This document shows positions 1 to 26,512 of a DNA stretch of 26,512 nucleotides, piece after piece (the first letter of the stretch is position 1; the number at the start of each line of letters is the position of its first letter). Location: IMG/VR virus record IMGVR_UViG_3300033148_002449, positions 1-26,512 of that record, one strand, 5' to 3'. The position numbers and the translations under genes were made by a program. The stretch comes from a virus. The notes beneath the pieces were generated by a model, which was not told the DNA's origin, did no database searches, and saw only the letters and a program-made list of their open reading frames with translations.

Positions 1-695
1 CCTTTCTCAGCTACCTTTTCAACCCCACCCGACTTGATGGTAAGAAATTTGGTAATTTCCTTAACCACGGCCTCAGTAGAGGGCAGACTGATAGGAGTCA
101 AGGACTTAACAACGACGGGGGTATGCCACGTCCCCTTAGCGTTCTCCGCATAGCGTGCCTTGAGTGTAACAGGAAGGGGGCCGTGAGGCTCTACATCCAG
201 CCCACGCCGCTCGATATCAGCTGCTGTAAGCGGGAGGAAGGGGTAGAGCTTCTTCGCTTCTGGGCGACTCGATTTATTACCGAAGTACACCTCCAGGAAC
301 TGCCCGGTGGTCTTCTCAAAAACCAAAAAGCTAATACCATGCTGACACCCAGAACTGGGTGTAGTTGATCTAGCCTGAATATCCAGAAATGCTGGGGCTT
401 GATTGTCATAAGATACGACAATCGCAGACTTATCGCTCACATCAAGTGCTTTAGGACGCCTAGCCAGGGGGAGAATGTCAATCGAGTCCCCCAGATCGGT
501 AATTGCCTCATCCGCCTCTGGAATGCCCCAATGGCCGGGGATGATTTTACCCGTGTCGATTGCCTTACCCTTAGTAAACAGCTTAACATAGCTGAGAAAA
601 TCCCCGCCTTTAGCGAGTTCCATAAAGGATTCATCGCTTCCAAGCTGAGTTGTGGGCAGTTGATTCAGGTCCAGTGTCGCCAGTTCATTTGACAT
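1..695 (-). CDS. Partial conserved phage protein, possibly replication-associated (3' end outside window)
   Basis: An open leftward frame begins at ATG 695-693 and runs without a stop to the left edge, giving 231 codons. GGGAGA at 703-708 lies 7 nt upstream of the ATG and supports this start. The protein begins MSNELATLDLNQLPTTQLGS and includes GKIIPGHWGIPEADE, PLARRPKALD and YPFLPLTAADIERRGLDVEP. It is soluble in character, with no membrane segment. I recall similar proteins near phage primases as conserved proteins of unknown role, and a DNA-binding role would fit, but no catalytic motif is visible. The frame is also open upstream to ATG 776 inside the inverted repeat, which would add 27 residues. 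That start lacks an obvious ribosome site. It is transcribed divergently from the primase-helicase gene at 853. Confidence 0.85.
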   Translation of the reverse strand, partial: MSNELATLDLNQLPTTQLGSDESFMELAKGGDFLSYVKLFTKGKAIDTGKIIPGHWGIPEADEAITDLGDSIDILPLARRPKALDVSDKSAIVVSYDNQAPAFLDIQARSTTPSSGCQHGISFLVFEKTTGQFLEVYFGNKSSRPEAKKLYPFLPLTAADIERRGLDVEPHGPLPVTLKARYAENAKGTWHTPVVVKSLTPISLPSTEAVVKEITKFLTIKSGGVEKVAEK

Positions 696-734
696 TACGT
701 TGTCTCCCGTTTGAAATAGTGTTGAAAATGTCGC

Positions 735-842
735 ATACAAACAACACAAGGGACGAAAGAGGCCCTGCATAGCCATTTAATTTATAATTTTGTGGATTAA
801 ATGGCTATGCAGGGCCTCTTTCGTCCCTTGTGTTGTTTGTAT
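735..842. repeat. Perfect 47-bp inverted repeat with 14-nt spacer between divergent genes
   Basis: Positions 735-781 and 796-842 are exact reverse complements over 47 bp, separated by an AT-rich spacer (782-795). The spacer includes TATAAT at 783-788, a match to a bacterial -10 box, although no good -35 element is placed for it. The repeat lies between the leftward gene starting at 695 and the rightward gene starting at 853, so both mRNAs could carry the same leader. Possible roles are a replication origin or protein-binding palindrome beside the primase gene, a bidirectional regulatory site, or a small palindromic element. An assembly artefact is also possible. The rest of the 696-852 gap holds only the two ribosome sites. 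Confidence 0.95.
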
Positions 843-852
843 AGGATAAAAT

Positions 853-3444
853 ATGCCCAAAGTATCAGAAGCAATACGAAACTTCCTGGAAGCCCGTAAA
901 ACAGGGGCTAATGCCGACCTTATTGGCCGCTGGCATCCTGGTATGGAGACTCAAATCAACGTAGCGGCTGGCGATGGCGAGCCAGTAGAAGGCAAACGAA
1001 GCACCTATACAGACGGTGTGAATGAGTGGTGGAACATCCGCTGCCCTAAGAACGCCGACAGTGAGCCTGAGTGGAATGACTACAATCTTCGTTGGCCGCT
1101 GGATTTGCACGCTGATGGAATTGGTATGACCGGGTGGAATTGGCAATCAAAACAATCTTGCTGGGTTGGTTTTGATATCGACTCCCTATTATCTCACGCC
1201 AAGGGGATCGGAATCAGCGACGGTGAATTAAAAAAAGTCAAAGAAAAAGCTATTTCATTACCGTATATCGAAGTGAGACACAGCACCGGCGGGGCTGGCC
1301 TCCATTTATATTGTTACTTGGATAATATCCCCACACAAAACCACACAGAACACGCCGCACTAGCCCGTTGCATCTTGGGTTTAATGAGCAAAGAAGCGGG
1401 ATTTGATTTTTCTAGTCGAATTGACTGCTGCGGTAGCAATATGTGGATTTGGCATAGAAAACTGGCGAACGACGGCCTGAAAATCATTAAGACCGCATCT
1501 AAGCAACTCACTGTCAGTGATTTGCCAAGCAACTGGAAAGATCACATTGAAGTTGTTACTCGTCGCCGCGCTAAGGTGCAAATTTCAATTGCCGACGAAG
1601 ATAAAGACCCATTTGAAGATTTAGCTAGTAGCCGACATTTAACCCCGCTGGATGACACTCATAAAGCTATCATTGATGAATTGGCTCGCTCAGGATACTC
1701 AACTGTTTGGGTTTCAGATTATCACCTGCTTCAAACTCACACAAAAGCCTTAGAAGAACTATCTAAGAAGTTAAAGATCAAGGGTTTTTTCAAAACAACC
1801 TCTAATGGAAAAGACCCCGCCACTTGTAATTGCTTTTGTTTCCCGCTTCATGATGGTGGGTGGCGAGTTTACCGATTCTCCCCAGGTGTTTCAGAAGATG
1901 AGACTTGGGAGCAAGATGGCAGCTGGACTAACTGCTACTTTAATTGTGTCCCTAATCTAAGCCTCGCTTCCAAAGCGTTTGGGGGCGTCGAAGCGCCAAA
2001 CAACGGTGGTTTTGTCTTCTCCGATGCGAGTAAAGCTACCAAGACATTAGAAATGCTGGGGCAGTCAATAAATATCCCAGAAGAATTAAAGGGGCGCGGT
2101 GTTCGTCTTAGAGCGCAAAAAGATGGCCGAATTGTTGTCACAATCAAAAGAAATAAAGATGAGGAAGTACCCGGTTGGCTCGGTGAAAAAAATAAACTCA
2201 CACGGGTCTTGAATGTTAAGATTGCAAGCAAACCACAAGCCGATCCCGAATACGACAAACTCATTAGAGCATTAGTTTCTCCCGATAAGGAACGTGCAGG
2301 ATGGTCAGGCAAGACTGATGACGGTTGGATTGGTCAATCAAAGGACGACATAAAAAGCTCTCTTTTATATCACGGTAAAGCAAAACCTGAAATTGATTTA
2401 ATTGTTGGTGCTGCTTGTGTCAAACCGTGGAAGCTAGTTAGTTTGCCGTTTCAACCGGAGTACCCAGGTGGAAGATTGTGGAATAAAAATGCAGTCCAAT
2501 ACTTACACCCTCCCGCTGAAACTAATGGGCCACACCCACACTGGGACATGATTCTAAACCATTGCTTTGAAGATTTAACAGGTGCGCTTCAAGAACTACC
2601 CTGGGCGCAGCAGGCTAATATAAAGACAGGGGCGGATTACGGACTAACATGGATGGCATGTCTCCTCCGTGAACCCCTACGACCCCTGCCATATTTGTTT
2701 CTTTTTGGCGACGAGAATTGTGGTAAGTCAATTTTCTTTGAGTCATTTACATATCTAATATCGGAAAGAGGAGTTGTATCAGCTAATCAAGCTCTAAGTA
2801 ATCAAAGTGGTTTTAATGGCGAACTCGCAGGAGCCGTCTTAGCCTATATTGAAGAAATTGATATTTCAAAGACTCGCGGAGCACTCGCTAAGATTAAGGA
2901 GTGGGTTTTATGCCCGAGGCTTCCCATTCGACAAATGAGAACAGACACATATTCACTGCCCAATACCTTGCATTTTGTTCAAACTGCCAATGATGCAACA
3001 TACTGTCCAATTATGCCGGGCGACACACGAATCACAATGGTTCACGTGCCGCCACTTTTAGATGAAAATGAAGTAGCTCGCCATTTGATGGAAGAGTATC
3101 TTATCAAAGAGGCTCCCTACTTTATGCGAACTATTTTTAATTTGACTCTTCCATCTATGACAGGGCGTTTAAGACTACCCATAGTTGAGACTGCTAGTAA
3201 AGTACGTGTTCAAGCAATGAGACGTAATCCAGTTGAACAATTTACTGCTGAAAGCTACCATATTGTTGCTGGTGAGCAGGTTTTATTCAAAGATTTCTAT
3301 GCCGAATTTATAGAGTGGCTATCAGTAGACGATAGAGGGGCTTGGAGTAAGCAAAGAACAGCAAGCGCTCTTCCAGCCAGTTGCCCAATAGAAACGGGCC
3401 GCGCCAATCAAAGATTTATTAACAACCTAGCGAGCGTAAAATGA
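853..3444 (+). CDS. Primase-polymerase fused to superfamily 3 (D5-like) helicase
   Basis: An 863-residue replication protein likely to prime and unwind phage DNA. The N-terminal part has archaeo-eukaryotic primase-like motifs: acidic pair FDID at residues 107-110, a motif II-like histidine in STGGAGLHLY (H151), and SRID (D191). The C-terminal part is an ATPase: Walker A GDENCGKS at 619-626, Walker B-like AVLAYIEEID at 661-670, a polar sensor TAND at 711-714, and an arginine-finger-like GDTR at 723-726. This motif set and order fits the D5/SF3 primase-helicases of phages and large DNA viruses. AGGA at 843-846 lies 6 nt before ATG 853. It is the first gene of the rightward operon, and its stop overlaps the next start by 4 nt (ATGA). 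The ATPase call is firmer than the primase call, because motif assignment in AEP proteins is difficult by eye. Confidence 0.88.
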   Translation: MPKVSEAIRNFLEARKTGANADLIGRWHPGMETQINVAAGDGEPVEGKRSTYTDGVNEWWNIRCPKNADSEPEWNDYNLRWPLDLHADGIGMTGWNWQSKQSCWVGFDIDSLLSHAKGIGISDGELKKVKEKAISLPYIEVRHSTGGAGLHLYCYLDNIPTQNHTEHAALARCILGLMSKEAGFDFSSRIDCCGSNMWIWHRKLANDGLKIIKTASKQLTVSDLPSNWKDHIEVVTRRRAKVQISIADEDKDPFEDLASSRHLTPLDDTHKAIIDELARSGYSTVWVSDYHLLQTHTKALEELSKKLKIKGFFKTTSNGKDPATCNCFCFPLHDGGWRVYRFSPGVSEDETWEQDGSWTNCYFNCVPNLSLASKAFGGVEAPNNGGFVFSDASKATKTLEMLGQSINIPEELKGRGVRLRAQKDGRIVVTIKRNKDEEVPGWLGEKNKLTRVLNVKIASKPQADPEYDKLIRALVSPDKERAGWSGKTDDGWIGQSKDDIKSSLLYHGKAKPEIDLIVGAACVKPWKLVSLPFQPEYPGGRLWNKNAVQYLHPPAETNGPHPHWDMILNHCFEDLTGALQELPWAQQANIKTGADYGLTWMACLLREPLRPLPYLFLFGDENCGKSIFFESFTYLISERGVVSANQALSNQSGFNGELAGAVLAYIEEIDISKTRGALAKIKEWVLCPRLPIRQMRTDTYSLPNTLHFVQTANDATYCPIMPGDTRITMVHVPPLLDENEVARHLMEEYLIKEAPYFMRTIFNLTLPSMTGRLRLPIVETASKVRVQAMRRNPVEQFTAESYHIVAGEQVLFKDFYAEFIEWLSVDDRGAWSKQRTASALPASCPIETGRANQRFINNLASVK

Positions 3445-3632
3445 TGGAACGACCAATTTCACAAAATGATCTTCGAGCAATTGCCGACCACCTAGAAGGT
3501 GAAACTGAACTGTCAATTGCAGTCAGTGAGATGGGCTTTGATCCAGCAGAATATCCGCACATGCAAAGGTGGCTGCAAGAAATTGGTCTATTAACCCACA
3601 ATGGCACTTGGTATAAGAAGGTTGATAAATGA
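3441..3632 (+). CDS. Small hypothetical protein, possibly a winged-helix-like fold
   Basis: A 63-residue protein beginning MMERPISQNDLRAIADHLEG. Its start overlaps the primase-helicase stop (ATGATG across 3441-3446), so translation is probably coupled. The second Met is an equally possible start. The sequence suggests two or three short helices followed by a beta turn ending in THNGTWYKKVDK, a layout that could suit a small winged-helix DNA-binding domain. There is no diagnostic motif. Position within the replication operon suggests an accessory to primase-helicase action, but that is inference. I do not recognise the family. Confidence 0.75.
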   Translation: MMERPISQNDLRAIADHLEGETELSIAVSEMGFDPAEYPHMQRWLQEIGLLTHNGTWYKKVDK

Positions 3633-4000
3633 AAACTATCAAAGATAGCGGAACTAGAACAGAATTTTCAACCGGCGCAGTACGAGACGCTCAAGAAGGC
3701 AAGGGCCGCATGGACCTCTTACCTGTGCGGGCAATAATTGAGGTTGCAAAAATAATGGAGTTAGGGGCAGAAAAATATGAGGCGCGTAACTGGGAGCAAG
3801 GTATCCCGGTACATCGCTTTATGGACAGTGGGTTGCGACACAGCTTTAAGCATCTTCGCGGAGACACAGATGAGCCTCATTTAGCTATGGCTTGCTGGAA
3901 CCTTTTATGCTGCCTAGATACTCAAATGCGAATCGAAGAGGGATTGTTGCCAAAAGAACTTAACGATTTACCGGGGCCTAATGAAACATCTATTCAATAA
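3629..4000 (+). CDS. dATP/dGTP diphosphohydrolase-like (MazG-type) protein
   Basis: A 123-residue protein matching the phage family I know as the dATP/dGTP diphosphohydrolase N-terminal domain (formerly DUF5664), an all-helical MazG-type nucleotide pyrophosphohydrolase fold. Visible family features are ELGAEKYEARNWEQG (residues 44-58), the RHSFKHLRGD segment with D81-E82 (70-82), and HLAMACWNLLCCLD (84-97). Acidic and histidine residues in these helices normally bind Mg2+ and nucleotide. Members hydrolyse dNTPs to dNMPs and include MazZ of 2-aminoadenine phages. The start overlaps the preceding stop by 4 nt and the end overlaps the next start by 20 nt. A dNTP-pool role in replication is inferred. 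No PurZ or base-modifying gene is visible in this window. Confidence 0.8.
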   Translation: MKTIKDSGTRTEFSTGAVRDAQEGKGRMDLLPVRAIIEVAKIMELGAEKYEARNWEQGIPVHRFMDSGLRHSFKHLRGDTDEPHLAMACWNLLCCLDTQMRIEEGLLPKELNDLPGPNETSIQ

Positions 4001-4553
4001 CATAATCGCCTCTGTCGATGTTGAAACAAGCGGGACCGTTGCCGGTTTCCATGAAATCATTCAAATTGCTATTGTGCCACTTGAGAGATTGCAGCCTGCT
4101 GGCGCGCCTTTCTATACCAACATCCGACCAAAATACCCTGAGCGGCGGGACCAAAATTCTCTCGACATCAACGGATTAAGCATTGAAGAATTGATGAATG
4201 CCCCTAGTAAAGAACGGGCGATTGATCTCTTTTCCGAATGGTTTGAAGAACTAAACCTGCCTTGCGGTGGTAAAATTATTGTGTTAGCTCACAACTCGTT
4301 TTTTGAACATGGCTTCTTACGGGCGTGGCTAGGACAAGAAGGATTAGATAATTTCTTTCACTATCTTTACCGCGATGCAATGACCTGCGCTTTAGCGATT
4401 AAAGATAAGATGGCATTAGTCGGTGAGTCGCCATTTGAAAGTGTCTCCCTTACTAATCTTTGTAAGGTCTACGGGATTACGAATGAAAAACCACACGACG
4501 CCTTAGCTGACGCTTTAGCCGAAGCTGAGCTTTACAAGGCACTACTGGGATGA
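3981..4553 (+). CDS. DnaQ-like DEDDh 3'-5' exonuclease
   Basis: A 190-residue protein with the three exonuclease motifs. Exo I is SVDVETSG with D13 and E15. Exo II-like is VLAHNSFFEHGFL (residues 101-113). Exo III is PHDALADA with H172 and D177. The family degrades DNA or RNA ends 3' to 5' using two metal ions and often proofreads or processes replication intermediates. The acidic residue expected in motif II is Asp (HNxxFDxxFL); here it is Glu109. The protein is close to the size of an isolated exonuclease domain. It overlaps the upstream nucleotidase-like gene by 20 nt and the downstream gene by 4 nt. A role as a free-standing exonuclease in phage replication or recombination is inferred. 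Confidence 0.9.
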   Translation: MKHLFNNIIASVDVETSGTVAGFHEIIQIAIVPLERLQPAGAPFYTNIRPKYPERRDQNSLDINGLSIEELMNAPSKERAIDLFSEWFEELNLPCGGKIIVLAHNSFFEHGFLRAWLGQEGLDNFFHYLYRDAMTCALAIKDKMALVGESPFESVSLTNLCKVYGITNEKPHDALADALAEAELYKALLG

Positions 4554-13900: not shown

Positions 13901-14683
13901 TTACACCAGATTTTTATATCCGCCTCCGTCCCAGTATAAATCAACAGCGGCGTTATAGGCTCTTGCGGCTTCTAACTCTGTTGGAAAAGTACCTAAATGA
14001 TGATCGGCCAATCTGGCCCGCCAAGATGAGCCCATTTTACCGACGCCCTTAAAACGCCCTGCCCGGGGGCCACTGTATTGCCGTTTAATCAGTAATTGTT
14101 GCCTTGCTTCTGGGTTATTCCAAACTCTTTTAGAGGCTTCTGACTTTTCTCTTTGCGCTTTAGGACTTTTCCCCGCTTCAATACGCCGTTGCCGTACTAT
14201 AGGATCGGCCCAAGTTCTCTTTGCTATCTCTGATTGAAGTTGTTTCATTTCAGGTGTATTATGTATCAATGTCTGTATCTTAGACATCTGGCGTTTTCTC
14301 TCAGGTAAGCTGCAATTTGCCTTCATTGATTCTGACATCCTTCGTCTTGTTTCAATTGATGGAGCTTTGCAACCCTCTCCGCCATCAGTGTGGTTACATA
14401 ATGGACCCGTCCCTAAATCCCTCCGCCCTAAAGCCATAATAAAGAAACGTTCCCACACCTGAAAAGCATCGTATCTTGATAGGCCACTTAATAGTCGATG
14501 GACAACTGGTTGAACGCCTTCCCGCTCCATTTTATTCAGTTTGTTATAAAAGAAGCGACACGTCTTGATATGATTCCGAAACTTGCGTCTCAAGTGTTGT
14601 TTATCGCGCTTACCGTGACCAGCGCCAATGTAAAAGGCGGTGTCATTTCGGGGATCAATATAAGCATAAACGTAATAACTCAT
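13901..14683 (-). CDS. GIY-YIG homing endonuclease with NUMOD-like and AP2-like domains
   Basis: A 260-residue free-standing nuclease. Residues 1-95 are GIY-YIG-like: YVYAYIDP (4-11), FYIGAG (17-22), a basic region HLRRKFRNHIK, and a likely catalytic Glu in WERFFI (E78). Residues about 105-125 resemble a NUMOD3 DNA-binding motif (IETRRRMSESMKAN). Two related basic segments follow (KRTWADPIVRQRR and KRVWNNPEARQQL). The C-terminal 50 residues are AP2-like (GRFKGVGKMGSSWRARL through LEAARAYNAAVDLY). I chose ATG 14683 because the nuclease fold begins there; an upstream frame to 14749 would read through the hairpin. Such genes insert between phage genes and spread by cutting alleles that lack them. 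It separates two tail genes. Confidence 0.88.
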   Translation of the reverse strand: MSYYVYAYIDPRNDTAFYIGAGHGKRDKQHLRRKFRNHIKTCRFFYNKLNKMEREGVQPVVHRLLSGLSRYDAFQVWERFFIMALGRRDLGTGPLCNHTDGGEGCKAPSIETRRRMSESMKANCSLPERKRQMSKIQTLIHNTPEMKQLQSEIAKRTWADPIVRQRRIEAGKSPKAQREKSEASKRVWNNPEARQQLLIKRQYSGPRAGRFKGVGKMGSSWRARLADHHLGTFPTELEAARAYNAAVDLYWDGGGYKNLV

Positions 14684-14692
14684 TTTATAAAA

Positions 14693-14722
14693 CACCCGGG
14701 CGAGTTTTACCTCGCCCGAGTG
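14693..14722 (-). terminator. GC-rich hairpin followed by TTTT just before the homing endonuclease start
   Basis: On the minus strand, positions 14722-14711 and 14704-14693 pair as a 12-bp stem with one G-U pair and a 6-nt loop (GTAAAA). TTTTAT follows directly. It lies after the stop of the 160-residue gene (14737) and 9 nt before ATG 14683. It could be an intrinsic terminator limiting endonuclease transcription, or an RNA structure restricting its translation, since the only SD-like bases (GGGTG) lie in the stem. Confidence 0.75.
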
Positions 14723-14736
14723 GTAGCAAGGGAACT

Positions 14737-15219
14737 CTACCCTGAGCATGTATAGGTAATTTTCAGAACATCGTTGTCATTGAGCGGCACTGCTGAACCA
14801 AAAGCCGCTGTAGACCACAAGACACCAGCAGTTCCATCCTTAGTTGAGCTACTTGAAATAAAGATGCCCTTAATTGTTATGGTAGCATCCATAGTGAAAT
14901 CAACTGTCACAGCATTAGTGATGGAACGAGCCGCAGCCGCCCCCGGCGTCCAAGCCTGTCGAGTGGCCTCGTCGTAATCGGCAGATTCTACCCAACCCGT
15001 GTGGGAACTCATAACATCAGCGTCGGCAAATTCAGTCCATGCGGCATTATCAACTAGACCAATATACCAAGTTGGAACAACAACCCCCTCGTGGAATTCT
15101 GTTTCCAAAATGTGATTCAGCCCCTCATCCACAATCCCATTGGGAATGTCGTAAGTGGCAATCACTTTGCCATCCCGTACGTGCTCGACCTTAAAACGCC
15201 CTTGCAATTTCATCTTCAT
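14737..15219 (-). CDS. Conserved phage tail-region structural protein
   Basis: A 160-residue protein starting MKMKLQGRFKVEHVRDGKVI, preceded by AGGAGAA. Recognisable stretches are NGIVDEGLNHILETEFHEG, TWYIGLVDNAAWTEFAD, HTGWVESADYDEATRQAW and TIKGIFISSSSTKDG. I have seen this pattern repeatedly in phage structural modules, where it follows the tape measure gene. The fold is probably beta-rich. The exact role is not known to me, and tail tip or fibre accessory is the best guess. It lies 15 nt after the tape measure stop and just upstream of the hairpin and homing endonuclease. Confidence 0.8.
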   Translation of the reverse strand: MKMKLQGRFKVEHVRDGKVIATYDIPNGIVDEGLNHILETEFHEGVVVPTWYIGLVDNAAWTEFADADVMSSHTGWVESADYDEATRQAWTPGAAAARSITNAVTVDFTMDATITIKGIFISSSSTKDGTAGVLWSTAAFGSAVPLNDNDVLKITYTCSG

Positions 15220-24761: not shown

Positions 24762-25217
24762 TTAAACTACATTCAATCTTGCGAATTCACCAAAGAATTT
24801 CTTAGCCGCTTTGTTATACGCTTTAGCGGCGTCTAGTTTATCTATGAAAAGACCAAGAAAGTATCGCTTGCCATTACACCTAATTTGAGTACACCACTTA
24901 CTACAATCTCTTCTATAATAAACACCCTTAAAGCCCGATGTATTACTTTTCTGCGGTGGGCAATTCATCTTTTGTTGCGCTGGTGTTGCTGGCCGCAAAT
25001 TCTTACGTCGATTGTCGAGTTTGTCTAAATTTTTATGATCAATCGTTTGGGAGCAATCTACCCCGGCGCGCTCTGCAATTACTCGGTGCATTCTGATTGC
25101 CGGCGATCCGCTAACTACATACCCGTGATGCCAGCACCACTTAAATTGACTAAGATACTCATAGTCAATATTATCAACCAGTGCATATTTACCTTGAGTG
25201 AGTGAGATTCTTTTCAT
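24762..25217 (-). CDS. HNH homing endonuclease with AP2-like C-terminal domain
   Basis: A 151-residue free-standing nuclease. The start is ATG 25217, overlapping the upstream TGA by one base (TGATG), after AAGGG. Residues 20-80 show the HNH core: FKWCWHHGYVV, MHRVIAE with H44, then IDHKNLDKLDNRRKNLRPAT (59-78) with D60, H61 and Asn residues that would bind metal. The C-terminal part is AP2-like: SGFKGVYYRRDCSKW (94-108), IRCNGKRYFLGLF, then LDAAKAYNKAAKKFFG. Such proteins cut a homing site near their own insertion. It sits between the adaptor-like and scaffold genes and interrupts the head module. A short hairpin (ccgag/ctcgg, 24747-24759) follows its stop. Confidence 0.9.
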   Translation of the reverse strand: MKRISLTQGKYALVDNIDYEYLSQFKWCWHHGYVVSGSPAIRMHRVIAERAGVDCSQTIDHKNLDKLDNRRKNLRPATPAQQKMNCPPQKSNTSGFKGVYYRRDCSKWCTQIRCNGKRYFLGLFIDKLDAAKAYNKAAKKFFGEFARLNVV

Positions 25218-25726
25218 CAACTAACCCTTGATAATTTAATTTCATTGCAGTCTCTAAGAAAAGGCTTTAGTAATTGCCACGCCGCCGCGCTTGGTATGCG
25301 ATGTACTACGTGTTCAATCGGTTGCATATCGCGGTTATACACCGTAGCGACTGATGCGTACCTTTGACTGGTCACGGCTAAACTCTCCAATTCTAAGTCG
25401 GGATCACGACCATCCAAAAGAGAATAGGCAATTTCATAACACGCACGTTCAATGTCGGTCGGGACTTCTGTGTCGGTGTCCCGAGGGAATTCCAACCCCT
25501 GGCTTGCCTCAGCTTCTCTAACTTGAGCATTAGTAGCCGACGAATTAGCCAATAAAAGTGTGTAAACTGCTGCCCTATAGCCTTTGAAATTCAAAGCGTC
25601 TATAAGCCGTGTCGCAGCTTGTAACGCCAGCGGCCGGTCGGCAACTTCAGATTCAGTCCAGACGGGGCTAAACAGCCGTCCTGCAAAGTAATCTGAAGCG
25701 CCGTTTATTGTTCCGTAATACGTCAT
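25217..25726 (-). CDS. DnaT-like family protein, probably a head-tail adaptor
   Basis: A 169-residue protein starting MTYYGTINGASDYFAGRLFS. ATG 25726 shares its A with the upstream TAA. The opening, the DRPLALQAATRLIDALNFKG segment (about 30-49), and the later EVPTDIERACYEIAYSLLDG (about 86-105) match a phage family that databases name putative DnaT-like ssDNA-binding protein. In phage structural modules it is probably a head-tail connector or adaptor. Its position, upstream of scaffold and coat rather than after them, is a little unusual. It is followed by the HNH gene. Confidence 0.8.
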   Translation of the reverse strand: MTYYGTINGASDYFAGRLFSPVWTESEVADRPLALQAATRLIDALNFKGYRAAVYTLLLANSSATNAQVREAEASQGLEFPRDTDTEVPTDIERACYEIAYSLLDGRDPDLELESLAVTSQRYASVATVYNRDMQPIEHVVHRIPSAAAWQLLKPFLRDCNEIKLSRVS

Positions 25727-26512
25727 TAACTCGCTATCCAAGAGTAATCACAACCATCAGATGCTTGCCCTGCCACCACGATTGTAACTTCAGCATCAGG
25801 ATCGCCCTTTATAACTTCCGCAGGAGTGACAGTACCTAAGTTTCCTTTATGCGTTTCAACAACCCCAACTGTGAGCTCGTTGCCAGGGGTTGTTTCAACT
25901 ACATCAACAGTAAGCTCGTTGCCAGGGGTTGTTTCAACTACATCAACAGTAAGCTCGTTGCCGGGAGTAGTCTCAACAACATCGACAGTGAGCTCGTTGC
26001 CGGGAGTAGTCTCAACAACATCGACAGTGAGCTCGTTGCCGGGAGTAGTCTCAACAACATCGACAGTGAGCTCGTTACCAGTGGTCGTTTCAACTACATC
26101 AACAGTAAGCTCGTTGCCAGGGGTTGTTTCAACGATCGTTATTGTCGCGGGATCGCCCACTAAGTCTGTATCATCGCCTGTTAACGCTACTATAGCTTGA
26201 TAACCTAAATCACCTTGGAATGTGACAACCCACTCTGGGGCAGTTCCAGCAACACCCACATCACCAGTTCCAATATTATTCAAACCCTCAAGAGCATCTT
26301 GCACTTCTTGAGCAGTGGCGTCCCAGTCAATATTCGCAGTTGTTTGTCCTGAGTACGTTAATGTAAATGTACCGCTTGTCACACCATTTAAGGTTACAGT
26401 TTGGACCTCATCGGTTCCACCTACACCACTGATGGCTGAAACATCAGTATTCGCCAACAACTCACCGAACGTCACAACATAAGATGATCCAGGCGTACCA
26501 GTCACAGCAACG
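25726..26512 (-). CDS. Partial beta-domain structural protein with 13-residue repeats (5' end outside window)
   Basis: An open frame ends at TAA 25728-25726 and continues to the right edge. The first visible residues (VAVTGTPGSSYVVTFGELL) look like the second half of a domain, so the true start is beyond the window. A complete copy of the domain follows: VQTVTLNGVTSGTFTLTYSG, WDATAQEVQDALEGLNNIG, then EWVVTFQGDLGY. It aligns with residues 28-140 of the major tail protein. Seven 13-residue units (VETTPGNELTVDV) come next. The tail end reads VTIVVAGQASDGCDYSWIAS. It is probably an extended surface-exposed structural protein encoded upstream of the head genes. No enzyme motif is visible. Confidence 0.85.
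   Translation of the reverse strand, partial: VAVTGTPGSSYVVTFGELLANTDVSAISGVGGTDEVQTVTLNGVTSGTFTLTYSGQTTANIDWDATAQEVQDALEGLNNIGTGDVGVAGTAPEWVVTFQGDLGYQAIVALTGDDTDLVGDPATITIVETTPGNELTVDVVETTTGNELTVDVVETTPGNELTVDVVETTPGNELTVDVVETTPGNELTVDVVETTPGNELTVDVVETTPGNELTVGVVETHKGNLGTVTPAEVIKGDPDAEVTIVVAGQASDGCDYSWIAS
25854..26126 (-). repeat. Seven tandem 39-bp in-frame repeats
   Basis: Seven contiguous 39-bp units, each encoding VETTPGNELTVDV with few changes: one unit has VETTTGNELTVDV, and the last in protein order ends TVGV. A partial, diverged unit (VETHKGN) follows. Units differ mainly at synonymous positions and fall into two nucleotide types. Confidence 0.95.

Follow-up and report, generated by a model that had tools for sequence, protein, structure and literature searches.

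The 108-bp stem-loop in front of a phage primase-helicase gene is one instance of a hairpin that a large phage family conserves at its primase gene, in pairing and not in sequence. On balance, this stem-loop is probably the replication origin of the phage, a structural hairpin of the pRN1 type used by the adjacent primase-SF3 helicase. We favor this reading because of the primase-linked position of the hairpin, the covariation of its arms, the precedent of pRN1 and the adjoining primase-SF3 helicase. An origin beside the replication genes had been one of several options raised in an earlier sequence-only reading of this DNA; the conserved position in relatives and the retained pairing now strongly favor it among them.

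A Perfect Inverted Repeat between Two Divergent Genes

The window analyzed here, 26,512 bases long, is an entire virus record, linear and probably a fragment. Elsewhere it carries genes for a major head protein and for a tail tape measure protein, and it is therefore a piece of a tailed-phage genome. The stem-loop sits in the gap between two divergent genes. Its left arm (735–781) and right arm (796–842), each 47 bp, are complementary at 47/47 positions and enclose a 14-nt loop, TTATAATTTTGTGG (782–795, plus strand), with TATAAT at 783–788, exactly as the sequence-only reading had described. The loop also contains GTGG (792–795). Re-measurement also confirmed the distances given there from the arms to the start codons, 39 nt to the leftward start at 695 and 10 nt to the primase start at 853. 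Putative ribosome-binding sites can be read in the sequence for both genes, GGGAG (704–708, minus strand) for the leftward gene and AGGA (843–846, plus strand) for the primase-helicase gene.

This inverted repeat is not a product of chance. A stretch of this size should by chance contain about 8e-23 perfect inverted repeats of 47 bp whose spacer is at most 60 nt, and the runner-up ungapped inverted repeat within the window has 12-bp arms. Nor is it probably a fold-back artefact, a concern raised in the sequence-only reading: the 30-nt flanks beyond the arms are unmirrored (10/30 complementary), making a gross fold-back unlikely, and both flanks encode the expected genes. What survives of that concern is narrower. 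At 47 bp, the uninterrupted stem far exceeds those of the family hairpins described below (next longest 28, median 19), and there is a modest chance, roughly that of an outside bet, that the hairpin is real but owes its perfect symmetry to an amplification or assembly artefact, or to template-switch correction acting on a hairpin that was once imperfect. This would touch only the perfection of the stem and does not conflict with the origin reading.

The rightward gene (853–3444, plus strand) encodes an 863-aa protein with matches to DUF5906 and to phage primases in PHROGs. Its earlier designation as a primase-helicase is borne out by the presence of primase motifs (DID, STGGAGLH) and an SF3 helicase (DUF5906). 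Among 25 primase relatives the residues of DxD, S..GxGxH, D and Walker motifs show little or no variation, and DUF5906 is present in 25/25; we take the conserved residues to be the archaeo-eukaryotic primase and Walker motifs. The sole solved relatives returned by a profile search match the helicase region and come from the NrS-1 phage primase. An AlphaFold model (pLDDT 86) likewise gave the NrS-1 structures as best fold matches, followed by the SaPI5 primase-helicase and the poxvirus and African swine fever virus primase-helicases. The predicted helices and strands of the C terminus have a winged-helix-like look at the level of secondary structure.

The divergent gene (3–695, minus strand) is cut by the record end and encodes at least 231 aa of a ∼245-aa family, with an orthologue at the same place in the relative L032/L040. 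Domain searches found no known domain in this family, and the AlphaFold model of the 245-aa protein is unusable (pLDDT 38).

Other features of the record include, downstream of the primase, a gene of the dATP/dGTP diphosphohydrolase N-terminal type overlapping a DnaQ-like exonuclease gene (3629–4553, plus strand). Two homing-endonuclease-like open reading frames lie on the minus strand (13901–14749 and 24762–25220), one matching HNH/homing-endonuclease PHROGs and the other HNH_3, with a weak AP2 match. A 39-bp tandem repeat in seven copies (25814–26172), coding on the minus strand for the peptide repeat VETTPGNELTVDV, adjoins the head genes.

A Primase-Linked Hairpin

Primase searches yielded 30, 80 and 12 viral loci, in overlapping sets, and 6 bacterial-genome loci. 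An annotated phage collection yielded no matches. Removal of near-identical primases left 88 non-redundant loci, and a gapped-palindrome scan was run over whole loci. In 57 of the 88, against 3.6 expected by length, the locus-wide strongest palindrome falls in the 400 bp ahead of the primase start. At a score of at least 25 there are 46 palindromes in 44 kb upstream of the primase versus 10 in 766 kb elsewhere, and none in the 500 nt downstream of the primase gene. Fresh loci, retrieved via the other gene, gave the same picture, with a hairpin within 500 bp in 17/19.

For statistics of size and position we used the 61 hairpins that score at least 20 and were found within 800 bp upstream, of which about four could be chance members as judged from the background palindrome density. 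Their median length is 116 nt (interquartile range 90–147), and their median end lies 68 nt ahead of the primase start. Family hairpins are mostly 80–170 nt long, with sequences that are unrelated between lineages. In the window and nearly all relatives the hairpin is 5′ of the primase gene. Across the primase tree the hairpin has a broad and clustered distribution, and the window's own clade has it in 8/8 members. Against an origin role, the upstream hairpin is absent by the criterion used from 29/88 tree members, and a few hairpins are displaced, one to −1147 (L074) and one to 34 nt past the primase stop (L038).

The gene on the other side of the hairpin varies. It belongs to the 245-aa family in 9 loci (hairpin in 9/9), is ParB-like in 63 (hairpin in 45/63) and comes from another family in 3 (hairpin in 3/3); the 245-aa gene is also found in ParB-type phages. 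The hairpin stays with the primase while the opposite neighbor changes.

Several further elements were seen in these loci. In the larger group, with L049, L031, L079, L113 and their relatives, a ParB-like gene (ParB_N, mostly with HTH_ParB) is located between the hairpin and the other leftward genes, a place where the window group has no such gene. The element TGATTTGATTT recurs upstream of the primase in L013, L014, L016, L017 and L020, often with an inverted copy, and in several loci is near but separate from the large hairpin; it could be an operator or an initiator site. L022 has several inverted-repeat copies built on CCGTTTATTGATTACAGAATC (1582–2094), some 3 kb ahead of the primase.

Pairing Is Kept while Sequence Changes

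The sequence-only reading had proposed comparison with relatives of the same gene order as a test capable of refuting a core function. Among relatives that keep this divergent gene pair, the closest is L032/L040 (68% and 59% identical); a hairpin with 38-nt arms occupies the same gap there, and the resemblance of its arm to that of the window is non-significant. The same spot thus holds a hairpin of unrelated sequence.

In 17 hairpins from one clade, 94.8% of stem cells are paired. Two-sided changes affect 13/23 stem pairs, with 55 two-sided cells versus 1 one-sided cell; none of 500 shuffles scored as high, and slid controls were 30%–49% paired. Template-switch correction of quasi-palindromes could keep the arms matched even in the absence of selection.

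These changes bear on the leading functional rival, a symmetrical promoter or large dimer-bound operator giving matched expression of both divergent genes, which we consider unlikely but worth keeping in mind. The sequence-only reading had suggested a symmetrical promoter, and the idea has in its favor the divergent genes that flank 51/61 hairpins, the little promoter space left in the gap outside the hairpin, and the presence in some lineages of a shared motif, CACCTATA for example, close to the base of the stem. However, an operator or promoter would not be expected to maintain pairing over 20–47 bp per arm despite two-sided sequence change, and this retention of pairing without sequence is left unexplained. 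The TATAAT in the spacer is no family feature, a search for a sigma-70 promoter found none, and the hairpin remains where the left-hand gene has been swapped. An intrinsic terminator was also sought, and none was found.

Next in order is a leader hairpin of the primase mRNA that would control translation or stability. The fold would be very stable as RNA (z = −15) and the arm ends 10 nt ahead of the start codon, but the pattern of change makes this improbable. Mismatches over all stems comprise 23 G-T and 36 A-C (p = 0.12), and the 55 two-sided changes are set against a single one-sided one. This near absence of G-U type intermediates, together with the lack of a G-T excess, argues for symmetry of DNA rather than RNA and points to pairing that is maintained at the DNA level. 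The leader sequence shared by both transcripts, as envisaged in the sequence-only reading, loses its support for the same reason. Furthermore, no Rfam family reaches its gathering score, and the distance to the start codon varies widely, with a few hairpins more than 1 kb away or downstream. Matches to Rfam microRNA precursors, far below gathering scores, reflect only the long stem.

We consider it very improbable that the hairpin serves partition (as a ParB site) or telomere resolution (as a protelomerase site for hairpin telomeres). Telomere-resolution sites are long palindromes, and a ParB-like gene adjoins the hairpin in many relatives. Yet the window group, lacking a ParB gene at that place, has the hairpin in 9/9 loci; no protelomerase (PF16684) match was found in 17 records, many of them fragments; and internal loops of up to 58 nt are unsuited to a symmetric telomere site. 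We give equally little weight to a double-strand origin of rolling-circle replication with a nick inside the hairpin, as proposed for pRN1 by Joshua et al. (PMC3869888), since no nicking-type initiator was recognized among the genes scanned in this partial record and Berkner et al. argue against such a mechanism for pRN1 (PMC4234260). Finally, a mobile palindromic element, another suggestion of the sequence-only reading, finds no support: there is no second copy in the record, and a 21-nt piece of the arm is unique among 2.9 million viral contigs.

Comparison with Known Primase-SF3 Systems

The closest precedent is the Sulfolobus plasmid pRN1. Adjoining its primpol-SF3 gene orf904 is a ∼100-nt stem-loop, with a stem of 21 nt and a loop of 58 nt, that is essential for replication and functional when moved. 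One stem mutation there is tolerated only when symmetry is restored, and the stem-loop sequence is unconserved between pRN plasmids (PMC4234260; PMC3869888). Specific binding of the replication protein to this stem-loop was undetected by its discoverers (PMC4234260). When our palindrome scan was applied to pRN1, the known stem-loop ranked first.

The phage family thus shares with the pRN1 family a stem-loop of ∼100 nt adjoining a primpol-SF3 helicase gene, in which structure is kept, sequence is not, and pairing matters. Dimensions like those of pRN1, with outer stems of 20–25 bp and loops of 58–59 nt in an ungapped scan, are found in L002/L003, L014/L029 and L031. The window itself has a single unbroken 47-bp stem and a 14-nt loop, unlike pRN1. 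The two systems also differ in that the pRN1 element lies 54 bp downstream of the gene, whereas that of the window is upstream, in the divergent gap. The window and nearly all relatives do not share the 3′ location of pRN1; we regard this as a difference of position, since the pRN1 element works when moved. pRN1 is, moreover, a crenarchaeal plasmid, and for the phages an origin function is suggested by analogy.

Berkner et al. proposed a similar stem-loop for the phages BIP-1/BPP-1 (PMC4234260). In BPP-1, a phage with a primpol-SF3 gene, the same scan locates a 133-bp palindrome (26592–26724 of its record) between divergent genes and some 450 bp on the 3′ side of the primase gene; it is possibly the same as the stem-loop drawn by those authors. 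Within the phage collection, the window primase finds no protein match in BPP-1.

The primase-polymerase of NrS-1, the best solved-structure match to the helicase part by both profile and fold, also combines a primpol with an SF3 helicase. This enzyme starts synthesis at GTG/GTGG and TTTGGTTA, with GTGG an efficient primer-start site, and the origin suggested for NrS-1 is based on 8-nt recognition sites near the genome center. These motifs are unenriched in the family hairpins. A search for a shared initiator motif found none, and GTG and TTTGGTTA were set aside as a shared signal, although the loop of the window ends in GTGG. GC skew was likewise rejected as evidence for an origin, as it tracks gene strand and marks no origin.

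A Proposed Model for Hairpin-Directed Initiation

For the favored reading of the stem-loop as a replication origin, we infer an origin role, an action of the neighboring protein on the hairpin and cruciform extrusion. In supercoiled DNA the palindrome may extrude as a cruciform; the primase-SF3 helicase would assemble there and melt it, and priming on the exposed strand would then launch replication. More tentatively, a large uncultivated family of tailed phages might start replication by reading DNA shape and not sequence, at a palindrome next to the primase-SF3 helicase gene that drifts freely in sequence while selection or template-switch correction keeps its symmetry; we see this broader proposal as a real possibility short of a probable one.

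Before this work, the case for hairpin origins of primase-SF3 replicases rested on a single family of archaeal plasmids and on what had been proposed for a single phage group; beyond the pRN1 papers, we found no report of these phage hairpins in the literature open without subscription. Here, dozens of divergent phages prove to have the same kind of element, with strong covariation and placed upstream of the gene. The choice of start site by primase-SF3 replicases becomes directly testable, and the hairpin offers a simple computational marker of candidate origins in uncultivated phages. If the broader proposal is true, hairpin origins would be a general mode of initiation for primpol-SF3 replicons, in bacterial viruses as well as archaeal plasmids.
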